From Mycobacterium vicinigordonae (GTDB taxonomy: Bacteria > Actinomycetota > Actinomycetes > Mycobacteriales > Mycobacteriaceae), in NCBI RefSeq assembly GCF_013466425.1, contig NZ_CP059165.1, forward strand, positions 5,518,001-5,582,000: 64,000 nucleotides of DNA, written 5' to 3'. Made by a program: the position numbers and the translations under genes. Positions 17,275-50,479 of this stretch are shown piece after piece. The notes below the pieces were generated by a model. It saw only the letters and a program-made list of their open reading frames with translations, did no database searches and was not told the DNA's origin. Position 1 is the stretch's first letter, and each line of letters starts with the position of its first letter.

Positions 17275-17316
17275 GGTGGCTGCTCCTCAGTTCCTTTGAC
17301 GGGTATTTCTCAGTAG

Positions 17317-18186
17317 CTACGCGGGAGGAGGTGGTGGCGGACCCCACGGCACGGCTGGCAGCGGGGCCGGCCCGCCAGGCGGCGGACCCAACGGCGGCGC
17401 GGCCAGCAGCGGCGCCGGCCCGCCAGGCGGTGGACCTGGTGGACCCCACGGCTCCGGTGGCGGCGGCGGACCCCACGGCGCGGCCAGTGGCGGCGCCGGC
17501 CCGCCAGGCGGTGGTGGACCCAACGGCTCCGGTGGCGGCGGCGGACCCCACGGCGCGGCCAGCAACGGCGCCGGCCCGCCAGGCGGTGGACCTGGTGGAC
17601 TCCACTGCACGCCGAGTGGTGGTTGTACGTCCGGCGGTGGCGGGGGTGAACCCCAGGCCCCAGGCACAACAGGTGGCCCTGGCAACGGTTCACCCTGCGC
17701 AACCGGCGGCGGTGGCAGCGGTCCCCCAGGCTCCGGCGGAGACGGTGGAACCGGCTCCTGCGGCGCGGGTCGAGCACGCGCCTTGGGGTAGCTAGGCTCG
17801 GCCTTCGGCGGCGGCGCGGGACGCAACGCCTGCGGCGGGGGAAGGTCAGGCGTGATGCGCGCGGGCGGTCCAAGCGGCGCGATCGCGCCGGGCTGCCCGT
17901 TGGTCGGTGTGGCCAGATTTTGCCCGCCGATCGGTGTGGCCAGGTAGGGGCTCCTGGCGATCACGGCAATGGTGGCGGTCGCGCCGACGATCAGCCCCAT
18001 TAGCGCCGCCACGATGGCCGTGCCGACCGGCCGGCGGCGTACCCGTTCACTAACCGCGGCCCGGACGCGTCGCCGGGGCCTCTCCGCCTGGACCGGGGCC
18101 GGGTTCTCGCCACTGTCTGGGGTGCTATTTGTGCCCGCGTTGAAGTCCACGTCGGAGTCCGCGTGGTCGCTGCCGTCGGAGGTCAT
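17317..18186 (-). CDS. Membrane-anchored proline-rich repeat protein
   Basis: A 289-residue protein. The N-terminal ~50 residues are charged and cytosolic, followed by one membrane helix (VGTAIVAALMGLIVGATATIAVIA) and then ~200 Pro/Gly/Ala-rich residues outside. The tail has repeats of a unit like PPGGPAPLLAAPWGPPPPPEP. It resembles proline-rich mycobacterial surface proteins. The repeats make the region prone to copy-number change and to misassembly. No enzymatic domain is seen. Confidence 0.72.
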   Translation of the reverse strand: MTSDGSDHADSDVDFNAGTNSTPDSGENPAPVQAERPRRRVRAAVSERVRRRPVGTAIVAALMGLIVGATATIAVIARSPYLATPIGGQNLATPTNGQPGAIAPLGPPARITPDLPPPQALRPAPPPKAEPSYPKARARPAPQEPVPPSPPEPGGPLPPPPVAQGEPLPGPPVVPGAWGSPPPPPDVQPPLGVQWSPPGPPPGGPAPLLAAPWGPPPPPEPLGPPPPGGPAPPLAAPWGPPPPPEPWGPPGPPPGGPAPLLAAPPLGPPPGGPAPLPAVPWGPPPPPPA

Positions 18187-44578: not shown

Positions 44579-45243
44579 CGTCCACCGAAGGCGACGACGC
44601 TGCAGCCGACGTGCCGGGTTCGGGAGACCGGGCCGTCGCGGCCGCGGCCGAACGCGCCAAACTGACTGCCGCGCGCAACATCCCGGCGTTCGACGACCTG
44701 CCGATTCCGTCGGACACCGCGAATTTGCGCGAGGGCGCCAGTCTCAACGACGCATTGTTGGCGTTGTTGCCCCTGGTCGGGGTGTGGCGTGGTGAAGGCG
44801 AAGGCCGCGGCTCGCACGGCGACTACCGGTTCGGCCAGCAGATCGTCGTGTCCCACGACGGCGGCGACTACTTGAACTGGGAAGCCCGGTCCTGGCGGCT
44901 CGACGACGCCGGCGACTACAAAGAACCAGGCCTGCGCGAAACCGGCTTCTGGCGCTTCGTCAGCGACCCCGACGACCCGACCGAGTCCACCGCGATCGAG
45001 TTGCTGCTGGCCCATTCGGCCGGATACATCGAGTTGTTCTACGGCCGGCCCCTGACCCAGTCGTCATGGGAGCTGGCCACCGACGCCCTGGCCCGCAGCC
45101 GATCGGGCATGCTAGTCGGCGGCGCCAAGCGGCTGTACGGCATCGTCGAGGGCGGCGACCTCGGCTATGTCGAGGAGCGGGTGGACGCGGACGGCGCGCT
45201 GGTGCCGCACCTGTCGGCGCGGCTGTCCCGATTCGTCGGCTGA
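44575..45243 (+). CDS. Nitrobindin/FABP-like beta-barrel protein (Rv0813c-like)
   Basis: A 222-residue protein with an N-terminal disordered 45 residues, then a ten-strand lipocalin-like barrel starting [17 protein letters not shown] and ending [10 protein letters not shown]. It resembles the heme-binding nitrobindins (GxWxGxG signature). Rv0813c is described as a fatty-acid-binding-protein-like barrel. It may bind heme or a hydrophobic ligand. Confidence 0.87.
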
Positions 45244-45251
45244 CCGCCTGG

Positions 45252-47630
45252 ATGCGTACCCGCAGGACGGCCCCACCCCAGGTGCGCTGGACAGTGTCCG
45301 GGATCGCCGTGCTGCTCATCGGCTATCTCGCCGCGGTAGCAGCCCGGCCCGTGATCCTGGAGGTGCTGCCGGGATGGCTGAGCTGGTTCGGCCGGCCGGG
45401 ATCGATGGCGACCACCGCGATAGTGGTCGGCGTGCTGGTCACGGCCTGCGTGATGACCTTCCGGTCCAGCGCCAACCACCGCGTGGTGGGTGTTTCGTTC
45501 ACTGTGATCGCAGCGCTGATCACGATGAGCGCGGTGCTGGGCCTCAGCGCGTACTGGGCCTGCCACGACACCAATCACCCGGCCCTCTTCACACCGTTGA
45601 TGTTGACGGCCCAGCTGATCAAAGGCAGCAGCAGCGACTACTCACTCGCTGGGCACATCTGCCCGGACCCCACCCCGGTCGGGCTCGAATTGGCCCGGCT
45701 GGCAGCAGTTTCGGCGATCTTCACGGGCTTGGGCGGCGTGGTGGTCGGCGTGTTCCGGTCCCAGGTGGACCGGCTGCGGGCGAATCTCGCGGACTCCGTC
45801 ACCGCGGTGGTAGGCATCGACGACGACACCGAGTCGATGGTCAGCGGTATCGCGCGAACGTTGGACCGGCGCAGCACCCTGGTCGTCATCTCCGGTGCCA
45901 GCGACGACCGGGTCAATCGGGTCCGCAGGCTGGGCGCACGGGTGGTGCTGGTGGACTTCAACACACCGTCCACCCTGGTCTCGCTGCGGCTGTGGCGCCA
46001 CCTCGGGCGGCTGTACCTGATGGCACCCGACCCCGCCGTCAACCTGCTGTGGCTGGACCTGATCGGCCGGCGACTCGCCGAGGTCGCCGACAAGCGCCGG
46101 CTGCCGCTGATCGTGCGCATCGACGACCCCTGGCTCGCCGAAGCCTGGCGCGCCCAGCAGTTCGGCGGATCCGACACCCGATGGGCCGCCGATGTGGTGG
46201 GCAAGTACGAGGTGACCGCGGCTCGGCTACTCGACGGCATCATCGCGACAGGCCGGACCAAACGTGTGTTCGTCTGCGGCACTTCGCAATTGACCCTGGC
46301 GCTAAGCGCGGACCTCACCCGGCGCGTGCTGGAGCGCGACTTCTACACCCCGCCCGGAGCGTACCCGCTGCCCGCGCTGACGCTGGTCGAAAAGGATGCC
46401 GAAGAATACCTGCAGGATCACCAGTTCTACCGCAGGCAAGCGGGTTTCGCCTCGGACGGTCCGTCGATCGACGCGGTGGCCGAGGCCCCGACCATCCCCA
46501 CCATGTTGCGACTACTGGCCGACACCGATCCGACCACCAGCGCGGTGATCCTGGTTGACGCCCACACCGCGACAACGGGTACCCGGCTGGCCGCCCGCTT
46601 CCCCGACATGCCCGTCTACACCTCGGATCTCAACACGAGCATCGACGACGACTCCATCCAGGTCGTCGGCATGCTGCAGTCCTACTCGCTGGTGCTGGAC
46701 ACCCGCGAAGGCCAGGTCCAGGATGCGTGGGAACGCGCGGCGCGGCTTATTCACGAGCGCTACGTGGCGACCATCGACCCCAGCTGGCCGCGCGGGCCCG
46801 CTGCGGTCCCGTGGATCGAACTCGACGAGTTCTACCGCGGCTCCAACCGCCGCCAGGTGCGCAACGCGTTGTGGATGGTCGAACAGATCGCCGGGCACAC
46901 CTGGAACACTTGGGGCACACGGCCTGCGCAGCTGTCTGGCCAGCAGATGGCCGATTCGCCGCCACTGGAGCAGTTGGCGATGATGGGTTTCGACGAGTCC
47001 TCGGCGCTGGCCATGGCGCGGGCAGAGCACGAGGACTGGTGCCGCTACTACCGCCGCAACGGTTGGAAGTACGGCACGCCCCGCGACGACGGACGCAAGA
47101 TTCACGACAAGCTGGTCGACTGGTCGGTGGTCGAAAGCAATCCCGACCTGCTCGGCGCCGCCGTGCGGAGTCTGGCTGCCACTCTGTGGAGCCTGCGTCA
47201 GCTGGGTTACCGATCGCGCCCGTTATGGCGGTCTTTCACCAGGGTCGGCACGGTTGCCGCCGAACAACACCATGAGCCGTGGACGTGGACGTCGGACTCG
47301 GGGCACGCCATGCATGCCGATGCCGGTGACTGGGAGGTCCGCTCCGACGGCAAGACGTGGTCGGTGCGCGACGACATTTTTCGCGCCACCTACGAACCGG
47401 CCGGCCCCAGGGCGCAAGGCGAGTGGCGGCGAAAGGGCCGGGTGCAAGCTCGTCCAGCCCAACCGGGTGAGACCGTCAACACTTTGGAAGGCCCCACCAC
47501 CGCCGCCGACGGCGACTGGGTGGTGCGCGGCGCCGAGGGCGAGCAGTGGCCGGTCCCGGGTCCCGAATTCGCACTACGATATGCCGAGACCCGCCAACGC
47601 GCGGACGCGCCGGCCCGCGACGGGGATTGA
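45252..47630 (+). CDS. Four-helix membrane protein with RCK-like, RyR and tandem PGDYG-like domains
   Basis: A 792-residue protein. Membrane helices are at ~15-31, 53-70, 78-101 and 147-168, with an external loop holding Cys104 and Cys137. Residues ~180-530 resemble paired TrkA-N/RCK Rossmann units (RSTLVVISGASDDRVNRVRRLGARVVLVDFN; RVFVCGTSQLTLAL), without a classical GxGxxG. Residues ~585-640 are an RyR domain (MARAEHEDWCRYYRRNGWKYGTPRDDGRKIHDKLVDW). Two C-terminal PGDYG-like repeats (GDWEVRSDGKTWSVRDDIF; GDWVVRGAEGEQWPVPGPEF) follow. No K+-channel TVGYG filter is seen. It probably senses a nucleotide or ion state and gates a membrane function. The ATG at 45252 is 8 bp after the barrel-protein stop. 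The TIR gene follows. Confidence 0.85.
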   Translation: MRTRRTAPPQVRWTVSGIAVLLIGYLAAVAARPVILEVLPGWLSWFGRPGSMATTAIVVGVLVTACVMTFRSSANHRVVGVSFTVIAALITMSAVLGLSAYWACHDTNHPALFTPLMLTAQLIKGSSSDYSLAGHICPDPTPVGLELARLAAVSAIFTGLGGVVVGVFRSQVDRLRANLADSVTAVVGIDDDTESMVSGIARTLDRRSTLVVISGASDDRVNRVRRLGARVVLVDFNTPSTLVSLRLWRHLGRLYLMAPDPAVNLLWLDLIGRRLAEVADKRRLPLIVRIDDPWLAEAWRAQQFGGSDTRWAADVVGKYEVTAARLLDGIIATGRTKRVFVCGTSQLTLALSADLTRRVLERDFYTPPGAYPLPALTLVEKDAEEYLQDHQFYRRQAGFASDGPSIDAVAEAPTIPTMLRLLADTDPTTSAVILVDAHTATTGTRLAARFPDMPVYTSDLNTSIDDDSIQVVGMLQSYSLVLDTREGQVQDAWERAARLIHERYVATIDPSWPRGPAAVPWIELDEFYRGSNRRQVRNALWMVEQIAGHTWNTWGTRPAQLSGQQMADSPPLEQLAMMGFDESSALAMARAEHEDWCRYYRRNGWKYGTPRDDGRKIHDKLVDWSVVESNPDLLGAAVRSLAATLWSLRQLGYRSRPLWRSFTRVGTVAAEQHHEPWTWTSDSGHAMHADAGDWEVRSDGKTWSVRDDIFRATYEPAGPRAQGEWRRKGRVQARPAQPGETVNTLEGPTTAADGDWVVRGAEGEQWPVPGPEFALRYAETRQRADAPARDGD

Positions 47631-47762
47631 CCGCGCAACGCGTTCGGCCGACAGCCGCCGTGAGTTTGCCGGAAGCCGATTGCTGCGGGGCGCAAATGCG
47701 CTACGGTCGCAGGACGGTTTTGCCGTATTAACTTCCCCTTGCCCTCAATTGAGGAGACCGCT

Positions 47763-49316
47763 GTGGCCATCTTCATCAGCTACTCGAGCCAGGACAGAAC
47801 GTCGCTCGACGCGCTGACGACCGCACTCAAGCGCGCTCAGCAGAAGGTTTGGTTCGACCAGGAGCTCGGCGGCGGCGACGCATGGTGGAACGCGATTCTC
47901 GAGCAGATCCGCTCCTGCGACGTGTTCATCGTCGCGCTATCCAACAATTGGCTGCAGTCCAAGCCGAGCCAGGCCGAGTTGCGCTACGCGCAGGCCCTGA
48001 ACCGCCCCATCCTGCCTGTCCAGGTGGGCCCGGTCGACAGTGTGCGAGTCAATCCCGTTTCCGCCCTGCAGATCATCGACTACCAGAACCCGACCGTGGA
48101 CGCCGGGATCCAGCTGGTCACCGCCATCCACGGGCTGTCCGGCAAGGAGTCCCCACTGCCGTCGCCCCTGCCCGAAGAGCCGCCGCTGCCATTTGGCTAC
48201 ATCATGCGATTGGGCAACACCCTCTCGGAAAAGGAACTCACGCCCCAGCAGCAGCTTCAGCTGCTGGTCGAGTTGCGGTCCGGGCTCGATGAAGACGGCA
48301 GCGACCCCAGTGCCCGCAGCGACATCGCCCAGCTGTTGCGGATGCTGCGGATGCGCCATGACGTCACGTACCGCACGCGCACCGAGATCGATAACGTGCT
48401 GGCCGAGATCGAGGCCAAGGATGGGTCGCCGGCGGGCCCGAAACCCCCCGCGCCGGGCGCCGCTGAGGCTGCCCCGCCACCCGCCGCCACGTCGGCCGCA
48501 CCGACGCAACCGGCCATCGCCGCGACACCGGCGCGCCCAGCGACCGGTTCCGCCGGAGCCACAGCCAGCTCGGCTGGCGGATCGAACAAGCGGCTGCTCC
48601 TCATCGGTGGCGCCGCCTTGGCTGCCGTGGTTGTGCTGGCGCTGATCGTGGTCTTCGCAACCCAGGGCGGCGGCCGCAAACCGGCCGCCAAACCGGGTAC
48701 GTCCAGCGCCGCGCTAGCTGCACCAGCGGGGGCGAGTGGGCAGAACTCCGACAAGCTGGATTCGTTTCTGCTCAACGCCGCCGAGATAGGCACCATAATC
48801 GGGGATCCGAACATGACGGTCACCGGGAAAACCGACCTGCTGCGCGCCACCCCGGGCACCCTGTCCAGTCCCGAGTGCTTCGGGGCGTACGAACCTTTAC
48901 TGCGCGAGACGTACGAGGGCGCCGACGGCTTCGTGGGGGCGCGCGGTCAGGCGATTCAGACGCCCGGCGAGGACCCGCAGCACCGAACCTACGAGGCCGT
49001 CGCCGCATTCGGATCCGCGGAGAAGGCGCATGCGTTTGTGCAGGCGTCCGCGGACAAGTGGCGGGCCTGCGCGGAGCGCGCAGTGACCCTGACCACGCCA
49101 AAGCGCAGCTTTGACTGGACATTCGGGCGCCTCGAAGGCGAACCCCGGAACAGGATCTGGATGGAAAAGGTGGCGGCCGCCGGGGGCCGCAGCTGCCATC
49201 ATGTGCTGAGCGCGCAGATAGACGTGGTTGTCGATGTGCTGGCCTGCGGTGCGGCCGCGGCCGCCAGCCCCGCGGGCAAGGTCGTCGACCAGATCGCCGC
49301 GAAGATCGAGCATTAA
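47763..49316 (+). CDS. Membrane-anchored TIR-domain protein with PknH-like extracellular sensor
   Basis: A 517-residue protein. The TIR domain (residues 1-125) starts AIFISYSSQDR; the candidate NADase glutamate is Glu72 in SKPSQAELRYA. Residues ~140-215 form a helical linker domain, then a Pro/Ala-rich spacer. A membrane helix lies at ~277-300. Residues ~325-517 are a PknH-like extracellular sensor domain with paired cysteines (SPECFGAY, WRACAERA, RSCHHV, VLACGA). So the sensor is outside and the TIR effector inside. The GTG has a GAGGAG Shine-Dalgarno. It follows the RyR protein by 132 bp and ends at a strong hairpin. Confidence 0.9.
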   Translation: MAIFISYSSQDRTSLDALTTALKRAQQKVWFDQELGGGDAWWNAILEQIRSCDVFIVALSNNWLQSKPSQAELRYAQALNRPILPVQVGPVDSVRVNPVSALQIIDYQNPTVDAGIQLVTAIHGLSGKESPLPSPLPEEPPLPFGYIMRLGNTLSEKELTPQQQLQLLVELRSGLDEDGSDPSARSDIAQLLRMLRMRHDVTYRTRTEIDNVLAEIEAKDGSPAGPKPPAPGAAEAAPPPAATSAAPTQPAIAATPARPATGSAGATASSAGGSNKRLLLIGGAALAAVVVLALIVVFATQGGGRKPAAKPGTSSAALAAPAGASGQNSDKLDSFLLNAAEIGTIIGDPNMTVTGKTDLLRATPGTLSSPECFGAYEPLLRETYEGADGFVGARGQAIQTPGEDPQHRTYEAVAAFGSAEKAHAFVQASADKWRACAERAVTLTTPKRSFDWTFGRLEGEPRNRIWMEKVAAAGGRSCHHVLSAQIDVVVDVLACGAAAAASPAGKVVDQIAAKIEH

Positions 49317-49333
49317 CTGGTCGAGAAATGGAG

Positions 49334-49382
49334 CGGCCCCCGAGCCGTTCTCCGGTTGGACAGACCGAAGACTCGGGGGCCG
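49334..49382 (+). terminator. Strong hairpin after the TIR gene
   Basis: CGGCCCCCGAG (49334-49344) and CTCGGGGGCCG (49372-49382) pair perfectly over 11 bp, with a smaller CGGT/ACCG pairing in the loop. It starts 17 bp after the stop, between convergent genes. Confidence 0.7.
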
Positions 49383-49556
49383 GGTGGCTGCGGGAAATTC
49401 GCCAGCGCGCGTTTATCGCTGACCCTTCCGAGCCAATGCAGCTAGCGCGCAGCCACCTCACATGTCCATGAAGCTATCAATTTCGCGGACCACCTCCTTC
49501 CTTGTGTACGACCGACGCTACCGCGACTTCTGTCCGGCTACAACAGAATTAACGCC

Positions 49557-50432
49557 TCAGCGATCGCTGACGATTGCGGCATCGACCAATTCGGCGAAGC
49601 GGTCGGCGAACGGGGCCCGGGGCAATGGCCGACCGTCGAGGGTGTGCACGCGGGCCGCCAGTGTCATGCTCGATATGAGCCAAATACCTTGGGCGGCTAC
49701 GAGATCCGAACGGCGCAGGGCGCGGTAGTCGCAGTCGTAGCCCTTGGCGCGAGCGACCTCGAAGAGCGCCTGCTGGGTGGTTCCGCGCAAAATTGGGAAC
49801 CAGGGCGGCGGGGTGAGCAAGCACGGGTTGCCGTCGTCGCCTTCGGCGGCGATGACAACGGTCGAGCGCGGACCCTCCAGGACAAAGCCGTCGGTGCTTT
49901 CGAAGACGACGTCGCCCGCGCCGTGTCGGGCGGCGTGGCGCAACGCGGCCATGTTGACCGCGTAGGACAGTGTCTTGGCGCCGGCCAACAGCCACGGCAT
50001 GGCGTCGACCCCCTTGGCCGGCAATCCGCGGTCCAGCGTGACGGCCGATACGCCGTCGCGGCGCACTGCTGCGACCCGGTCGGGAACCGGGCTGACTGTG
50101 ACATAGCCGGTGGGCGCGCTCGGCGCGCTCTCGCGGCCTCGGCTGTAGATCAGCCGCATCGCGGCCTCGTCGGCGCTGCTCGAGGTCCATTGGCGGGTCG
50201 CCGCGTCGATGGCGCTGCGCCAGGCCGGAAGATCAGGTTCGGGCAATTCCATGAATGCGGCCGACTGGGTCAGCCGCTGCAGGTGCGACTCAATCAGGCA
50301 CGCCCTGCCGTCGCGGATCAGCAGCGTCTCGAAAACTCCGTCCCCGCGGACGGCGGCCAGATCGTCCGCATGCAGCAGCGGCGTACCGGGATCCAGGATT
50401 TCACCGCCGAGCCTGACAACCACACCAGCCAT
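49557..50432 (-). CDS. PLP class IV aminotransferase / aminodeoxychorismate lyase-like (Rv0812-like)
   Basis: A 291-residue fold-type IV PLP enzyme. The catalytic Lys is in LLAGAKTLSYAVNM, and VFESTDGFVLEGPRSTVVI plus the C-terminal substrate loop follow. Rv0812 has been linked to folate synthesis and D-amino-acid transamination. ATG 50432 gives the family length. It diverges from the YgfZ-like gene by 47 bp. Confidence 0.9.
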   Translation of the reverse strand: MAGVVVRLGGEILDPGTPLLHADDLAAVRGDGVFETLLIRDGRACLIESHLQRLTQSAAFMELPEPDLPAWRSAIDAATRQWTSSSADEAAMRLIYSRGRESAPSAPTGYVTVSPVPDRVAAVRRDGVSAVTLDRGLPAKGVDAMPWLLAGAKTLSYAVNMAALRHAARHGAGDVVFESTDGFVLEGPRSTVVIAAEGDDGNPCLLTPPPWFPILRGTTQQALFEVARAKGYDCDYRALRRSDLVAAQGIWLISSMTLAARVHTLDGRPLPRAPFADRFAELVDAAIVSDR

Positions 50433-50479
50433 GGAGTCAGAGCCTAACGACCCCTGCGTCAACCGTAGAGTTGATGCAT

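Follow-up and report, generated by a model that had tools for sequence, protein, structure and literature searches.

We analysed a stretch of 64,000 nucleotides from the genome of Mycobacterium vicinigordonae (6.27 Mb, single contig; contig NZ_CP059165.1, positions 5,518,001 to 5,582,000 of the forward strand), referred to here as the window. It contained two adjacent genes on the same strand, separated by an intergenic gap of 132 bp, and both were found where an earlier note, made from the sequence alone, had placed them. Many mycobacteria carried such a membrane TIR-sensor gene and a channel-like RyR/RCK gene side by side. On balance we considered it probable that the two genes formed a signalling pair, in which the TIR protein would make a messenger derived from nicotinamide adenine dinucleotide (NAD) that gates the RyR/RCK protein. 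The basis for this pairing was the domain content, the modelled folds, the conserved residues, the recurrent linkage and the joint decay of the two genes. Their features, in positions of the window, were as follows (aa, amino acids).

45252..47630, plus strand: gene 1, RyR/RCK membrane protein, 792 aa
45276..45788, plus strand: membrane part, residues 9-179 (hydropathy and AlphaFold2 model)
45789..46721, plus strand: two RCK/TrkA-type Rossmann units, residues about 180-490
46725..46889, plus strand: probable degenerate first RyR-like repeat, residues about 492-546
46995..47201, plus strand: RyR repeat (PF02026), residues about 582-650, with pocket residues H593, W596 and H618
47229..47591, plus strand: two PGDYG-like beta repeats, residues about 660-780
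47763..49316, plus strand: gene 2, TIR receptor-like protein, 517 aa
47763..48146, plus strand: TIR domain, residues 1-128, with the candidate catalytic Glu72 at 47976-47978
48195..48422, plus strand: helical linker, residues about 145-220
48597..48659, plus strand: one membrane helix (hydropathy), residues about 279-299, preceded by an N-K-R stretch
48750..49304, plus strand: PknH-type extracytoplasmic sensor domain, residues about 330-514

The earlier note had ascribed to gene 1 four membrane helices, RCK units, an RyR domain and two PGDYG-like repeats, and the first three were borne out by hydropathy, an AlphaFold2 model and profile matches to the R12 domain of ryanodine receptors. Namely, the protein had four hydrophobic segments, and the model (predicted local distance difference test score 83.3, predicted template modelling score (pTM) 0.69) contained helices at residues 9-31, 52-72 and 78-101, a short pore-helix-like one at 113-123 and a long one at 143-179. 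Comparison with known structures gave an RCK gating-ring fold, with alignments to GsuK and MthK starting at residues 80-87; the succession of membrane helix, pore loop, membrane helix and RCK ring was thus present, as seen in the model. The RyR domain scored 26.9 bits against the Pfam PF02026 cut-off of 27.4 in the whole protein and 29.7 bits, above the cut-off, in a six-frame search of the genome, and a precomputed PF02026 label was found on all 120 relatives listed (the best 120 of 721). Moreover, a profile of 40 gene 1 relatives matched a Bacteroides thetaiotaomicron/human R12 chimera (6uhi, E 1.3e-14), the R12 domain of RyR1 (5c30, 6e-8) and RyR3 (9l92, 7.8e-8), so the domain was related to R12 in both fold and sequence. 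The PGDYG-like repeats could be delineated, and one split-off relative exceeded the Pfam cut-off (29.1 bits), but the match in gene 1 itself was weak (18.8 vs 27 bits); the fold searches barely reached residues 660-780. Gene 1 had no match in PADLOC and none above cut-off among the NCBIfam models (June 2026). Its start was not certain, since a publicly available annotation of this contig had it 14 residues shorter (778 aa).

Gene 2 matched the Pfam families TIR_2 (75.5 bits) and PknH_C (130.4 bits), both above cut-off, and its PknH-type sensor (PF14032) was recovered by score and by fold, as was a TIR fold with a candidate catalytic glutamate. This residue, Glu72, was invariant in 33 of 33 aligned relatives. 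Thus the TIR domain with Glu72, the membrane helix and the PknH-like sensor that had been proposed for gene 2 were confirmed, and structure prediction of the two proteins gave the TIR and RyR folds that had been claimed. Since the model of the gene 2 protein had a pTM of 0.46, it was used by single domains only. The N-terminus was probably inside the cell and the sensor outside the membrane. Two additional TIR_2 genes were present in the same genome (G000:C1:1970981-1971382 and 2863273-2863563), far from its sole RyR match.

The two halves of gene 2 differed in their history. Among 27 window-type proteins (351 pairs), mean identity was 84% in the TIR domain and 88% in the linker, as compared to 50% in the sensor. 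The TIR domain of the window was 92-95% identical to those of M. asiaticum (L031) and two metagenome-assembled genomes (L029, L030), while the sensors were 43-45% identical. In the tree of the N-terminal half, the window fell into an 11-row set with these three loci (support 95), whereas in the sensor tree it belonged to a 16-row set with, for example, M. nebraskense, M. colombiense and M. triplex (support 96). Since the two trees disagreed, the sensor half was likely to have been exchanged within the gene. These trees and the RyR tree below were quick trees with Shimodaira-Hasegawa-like approximate likelihood ratio test support only.

Matches to gene 1 (P0001) were found in 40 of 148 relatives and matches to the TIR part in 45. 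Among the 67 named RyR/RCK loci, the flank that was fetched contained a TIR open reading frame (ORF) in 61. It was separated from the nearest RyR-family ORF by one called gene in four of the 61 and by none in the other 57. In L086, L087, L089 and L090, the nearest RyR-family ORF was a split-off PGDYG tail, located as a separate ORF beyond the TIR-STAND and patatin genes (about 17300-18000). Genes in the fetched loci were called with a simple GC-based script, and AT-rich genomes needed plain ORF listing. A second P0001-type copy in M. numidiamassiliense (L070, 72%) had no TIR neighbour.

The RyR/RCK genes were accompanied by TIR proteins of at least four architectures in several gene orders. 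The arrangement of the window was shared by its close relatives, which we take from their species names to be slow growers. Relatives with 49-56% identity, by their names presumably mostly rapid growers, had a TIR-nSTAND1-WD40 partner of roughly 1400 aa instead, and 7 of 10 of them also had a patatin-like gene (the L078 copy scored 107.1 vs 200 bits, below cut-off, with the NCBIfam model CBASS_lipase). The L075 partner was TIR-WD40 (Pfam was run on the L078 and L075 copies), and in Smaragdicoccus (L094) a TIR-NACHT gene directly followed the RyR/RCK gene. TIR-PknH genes occurred in divergent order in L074, L129, L130 and L131, and in L146, L151 and L152 they adjoined a second RyR subfamily, TM-TrkA_N-RyR, which the RyR tree separated (with long branches flagged) and which was found, by source names, also in Anaerolineae, Gemmatimonadota, Acidobacteria and a Bathyarchaeota. 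A search of PLSDB with one RyR protein of this subfamily gave no plasmid match at E 1e-10. On the RyR tree, 17 partner labels required 18 changes, with a minimum of 16; 11 of the 17 were single rows or too small to list.

Gene context was examined in Actinobacteriota. In the phylum sample, PF02026 was found in 20 of 396 genomes, 14 of them outside the genus, and a TIR_2 match lay within 10 kb of RyR in 6 of these 14 (expected 0.19, P 5e-9), at gaps from 200 bp to 7.3 kb. The two were immediate neighbours in G101, G515 and G517. In three genomes of one family (G217, G259, G301), the RyR gene was directly preceded by a TIR-like gene of the DUF4062 type (Pfam was run on the G301 copy only). As for the remaining five, the nearest TIR was 23 kb away in G222, G264 had no TIR_2, the TIR genes of G446 were on other contigs, and G287 and G313 had short contigs. 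Outside this count, G107 and G128 had TIR near or beside RCK-RyR, and G130 had DUF4062-NACHT beside RCK-RyR. Several RyR proteins outside the genus were non-RCK, with N-terminal parts that looked kinase-like or HD-like by eye. STAND proteins of the DUF4062 type, a TIR-like NADase, adjoined RyR proteins at L154:4090-8370, L155:3916-8118, L157:2023-6228 and L128:5528-9751 (Pfam was run on the L157 and L128 copies).

The two genes also tended to be lost together. Among the window-type loci, both genes were intact in 43 and both were broken in three (L064, L072, L095); only the TIR gene was shortened in one (L061), and no locus had a broken RyR gene alone (P 2.5e-4 in a Fisher test that omitted two loci located at contig ends). 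The 3.27 Mb genome G075 contained fragments of both.

In the signalling pair that we favoured, an envelope cue, the presumed trigger, would be detected on the outside by the PknH-type domain, and the sensor would activate the TIR domain inside the cell. The TIR domain would then turn NAD+ into a messenger of the ADP-ribose type, for which a cyclic ADP-ribose (cADPR) isomer was the likeliest candidate, and this messenger would bind the R12-like RyR domain of the neighbouring membrane protein. Finally, the RCK ring may relay the binding to the membrane part and change ion flow. The doubt grew from step to step, from the putative TIR NADase activity through the messenger, RyR binding and the RCK relay to conduction. 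Relatives would keep the step from NADase to RyR/RCK and swap the front end, namely a PknH-type sensor, STAND/WD40 (often with patatin), WD40 or NACHT. A broader form was held tentatively and seemed rather doubtful: a modular NADase (TIR or DUF4062) with exchangeable sensors, one of them an outward-facing receptor with a layout similar to that of Toll-like receptors, would make cADPR, and an RCK channel would open when its R12-type RyR domain receives it. Anti-phage defence was one option for the purpose of the pair, to which the STAND, NACHT and patatin partners pointed; envelope signalling was at least as good a fit for the form found in the window, with its outward sensor and constant position in the chromosome.

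The pocket of the RyR domain bore on whether it would receive the messenger or destroy it. RyDEP, a phage glycosidase of the RyR (R12) domain family, clears the signal; its pocket binds cADPR through a His, a Trp and a second His, and its catalytic Asp117 touches the ribose (PMC13232231). Profile positions 584-635 aligned with residues 73-124 of the matched chain, which are equal spans, and one extra residue was assumed at the start of this chain. The ligand positions then corresponded to H593, W596 and H618 of gene 1; of the 40 rows, 39 kept the first of these and all kept the other two. The Asp117 position (residue 635) held Asn in 22 rows, Asp in 7, Ser in 4, His in 2 and Gly in 2, the window being one of the last two. 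Under this mapping, the catalytic Asp of RyDEP was missing from gene 1. A predicted binding site mostly without the catalytic acid fits a receptor rather than a hydrolase. Nevertheless, the RyR protein could be an off-switch that binds or hydrolyses the TIR product as RyDEP does, with the membrane part as an anchor or a coupling to ion status. Besides RyDEP itself, this agreed with stand-alone RyR proteins of 160 and 166 aa in two clusters (L127, L149) and with a 100-aa RyR gene overlapping the TIR gene in L132. However, given the residues at the catalytic position, and since a two-unit RCK ring and a pore-like membrane part would be superfluous for a hydrolase, we regarded an off-switch as unlikely.

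The small stand-alone RyR proteins near TIR or RCK-RyR genes (L127:4351-4833, L149:11610-12110 and L132:9926-10228; 100-166 aa) were possibly host enzymes that clear the signal. The TIR gene that overlaps the smallest of them (L132:10206-12452) encoded a phosphorylase-like region as well (PNP_UDP_1, 21.8 vs 25.1 bits). A stand-alone host RyR protein was similar to 131 phage records, including Arthrobacter, Gordonia and Rhodococcus phages. The RyR stretch of the window itself gave 15 phage records, all weak (E 0.1-0.9).

In another reading, the two proteins are linked, but the TIR protein acts simply as an NADase or as a scaffold. The RyR/RCK protein would then use its RCK or RyR part to monitor the levels of NAD(H), ADP-ribose or ATP/ADP, as a metabolic alarm and not as the receiver of a dedicated messenger. 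RCK rings bind adenine nucleotides (GsuK-ADP, GsuK-NAD and TrkA-ATPgammaS were among the matches), and human R12 structures contain AMP-PCP and ATP (9l91, 6uhh). Furthermore, DUF4062 enzymes were reported, in the available part of PMC13174449, to yield ADP-ribose and nicotinamide, and yet DUF4062 genes adjoined RyR genes. Yet such an alarm alone predicts neither the conserved cADPR-pocket residues nor the repeated linkage, and we considered it rather unlikely.

A number of observations weighed against the proposed signalling from TIR through cADPR to an RyR/RCK channel. The cADPR pocket was incompletely conserved, as the Asp117 position was mostly N. No GYG-type filter was found in the pore loop in the 40 rows of gene 1 relatives: a G[YFL]G pattern occurred within residues 86-165 in 22 rows, as TGLGG in the last membrane helix in 21 of them and, judged by eye, in the third helix in the remaining one (L077). 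A canonical K+ channel was accordingly set aside, and in the absence of that filter the word channel refers to the fold. In the TIR domain, Trp63 was kept in 27 of 33 relatives and varied in the rest. A TIR ORF was not found in six of the 67 named loci (L067, L070, L077, L091, L085, L095), although the L085 contig stopped inside a STAND-WD40 gene and L095 had TIR fragments. In three of the six linked genomes outside the genus (G162, G317, G469), RyR and TIR were 3-7 kb apart rather than adjacent. General genome decay and draft errors may also have contributed to the joint loss of the genes.

A further counterweight came from a class sample, where PF02026 was present in 51 of 394 genomes. We fetched 40 stretches covering 41 of the 48 RyR places outside the genus; those left out were G101 (already covered), G538, G628, G652, two of G799 and one of G677, and the same-genus genomes G079, G732, G797 and G836, which had an RyR match, were outside this analysis. 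TIR was found within about 8 kb in 3 of the 40 stretches (expected 1.84, P 0.28). All three were among the six stretches outside family f104, and in f104 there was no TIR in any of 34, though these genomes held 6-43 TIR_2 matches. The TIR profile recovered 10 of 10 strong f104 control TIRs, while weak ones could escape; several f104 stretches (L198-L237 set) were shortened by contig ends, 4 of the 34 RyR matches were below the Pfam cut-off, and L237 had no RyR ORF of 100 aa. One of the three with TIR was G748, from another family, in which a P0001-type gene with a PGDYG tail (E 1.9e-58) was immediately followed by a TIR ORF in the same orientation. A universal RyR-TIR rule was thus ruled out by f104, and the linkage was recurrent, not universal. 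Accordingly, the co-occurrence that the earlier note had predicted held strongly in the genus, was seen in several other actinobacterial families and failed in f104. Its hypothesis of a putative TIR messenger read by the RyR/RCK protein was partly supported: of the three findings that it had named as refuting, two were looked for and neither arose, since both folds were modelled and the two genes occurred together, with exchange of partners.

It could also be that the two genes are neighbours by descent only, through an old association without a shared pathway. In the RyR tree, a branch separated the loci arranged as in the window from the rest, and RyR loci without TIR existed, including the 34 of f104. 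On the other hand, several TIR architectures and gene orders, two RyR subfamilies, other families, DUF4062 partners and joint decay made such a purely historical neighbourhood very unlikely in our estimate. Chance neighbours were disfavoured by the 61 of 67 loci, the 6 of 14 genomes, the tree and the joint decay.

The pair resembled Thoeris (ThsB with ThsA or other effectors) in that a TIR gene lay next to an effector-like gene and an NAD-derived messenger was expected. It differed in that the effector was an RyR/RCK membrane protein without SLOG, Macro or caspase domains (Pfam) and that the TIR protein bore an extracytoplasmic sensor. Thoeris membership was set aside as no curated model exceeded its cut-off on gene 2 (NCBIfam ThcB4 11.9 vs 220 bits; PADLOC ThsB at best 21.6 bits, with no cut-off given). 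Gene 1 shared with RyDEP and its homologues the RyR (R12) domain with the same spacing of His-x-x-Trp and a second His; RyDEP, however, is a small viral signal-clearing protein, and here the domain was part of a host RCK membrane protein with the catalytic Asp mostly lost. The R12 domain of the animal ryanodine receptor was kin, and the proteins were otherwise unrelated, since gene 1 had an RCK ring, about 800 aa and no large RyR assembly. Unlike the RCK-gated channels GsuK, MthK, Slo1 and CASTOR/DMI1, gene 1 lacked a GYG-type filter and had RyR and PGDYG parts added. The type of sensor in gene 2 is found on a Ser/Thr kinase in PknH of M. tuberculosis and was fused here to TIR. Similar to Toll-like receptors and SARM1, gene 2 had a TIR fold and, in the predicted topology, a sensor outside, one membrane helix and TIR inside; in contrast to them, its TIR was N-terminal, so that the order was reversed, and its sensor was unrelated.

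Whether cADPR acts directly on ryanodine receptors, and at which site, is an old disputed question. This nucleotide has been implicated in RyR modulation (PMC13232231). If the proposed signalling were true, an RyR domain and an RCK ring beside a TIR enzyme would make this question testable in a simple bacterial system. Bacterial TIR signalling would gain an ion channel as its output and an extracytoplasmic receptor as its input, a host-side counterpart would be suggested for phage RyR proteins, and mycobacteria would have a new envelope-to-membrane signalling pathway. Messenger signalling by TIR proteins is already known; the RyR/RCK partner and the form with an outward sensor would be the new part. 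Among the papers listed in the literature searches, none described a bacterial RyR-TIR gene pair, apart from the preprint on phage RyR (PMC13232231). Two Burroughs/Aravind papers and the TIR-systems preprint of Yirmiya et al. (2025), which may cover part of the subject, were outside this scope. The term RyR was absent from the available passages of PMC13142454 and, by word search, from the available text of two eLife papers.

The genes flanking the pair were as follows.

44677..45243, plus strand: left flank, nitrobindin-like gene (THAP4-type heme-binding)
49328..49507, minus strand: right flank, Rfam small RNA Ms_IGR-5 (RF02471, 169.1 bits), between gene 2 and the pabC-like gene
49557..50462, minus strand: right flank, aminodeoxychorismate lyase gene (pabC-like)

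The strong terminator that had been claimed after gene 2 was not supported, as no T-run terminator was found 3' of the gene, the hairpin at 49317-49400 was no better than shuffled sequences (z -0.98), and Ms_IGR-5 lay there on the minus strand. It seems that part of this small RNA had been taken for a terminator. Of 24 genomes of the genus that were checked, 4 had only 53-86 bp between the nitrobindin and pabC genes, and the rest had a longer gap or no pabC within the 1.5 kb flank. Thus, an empty site for the pair exists within the genus.

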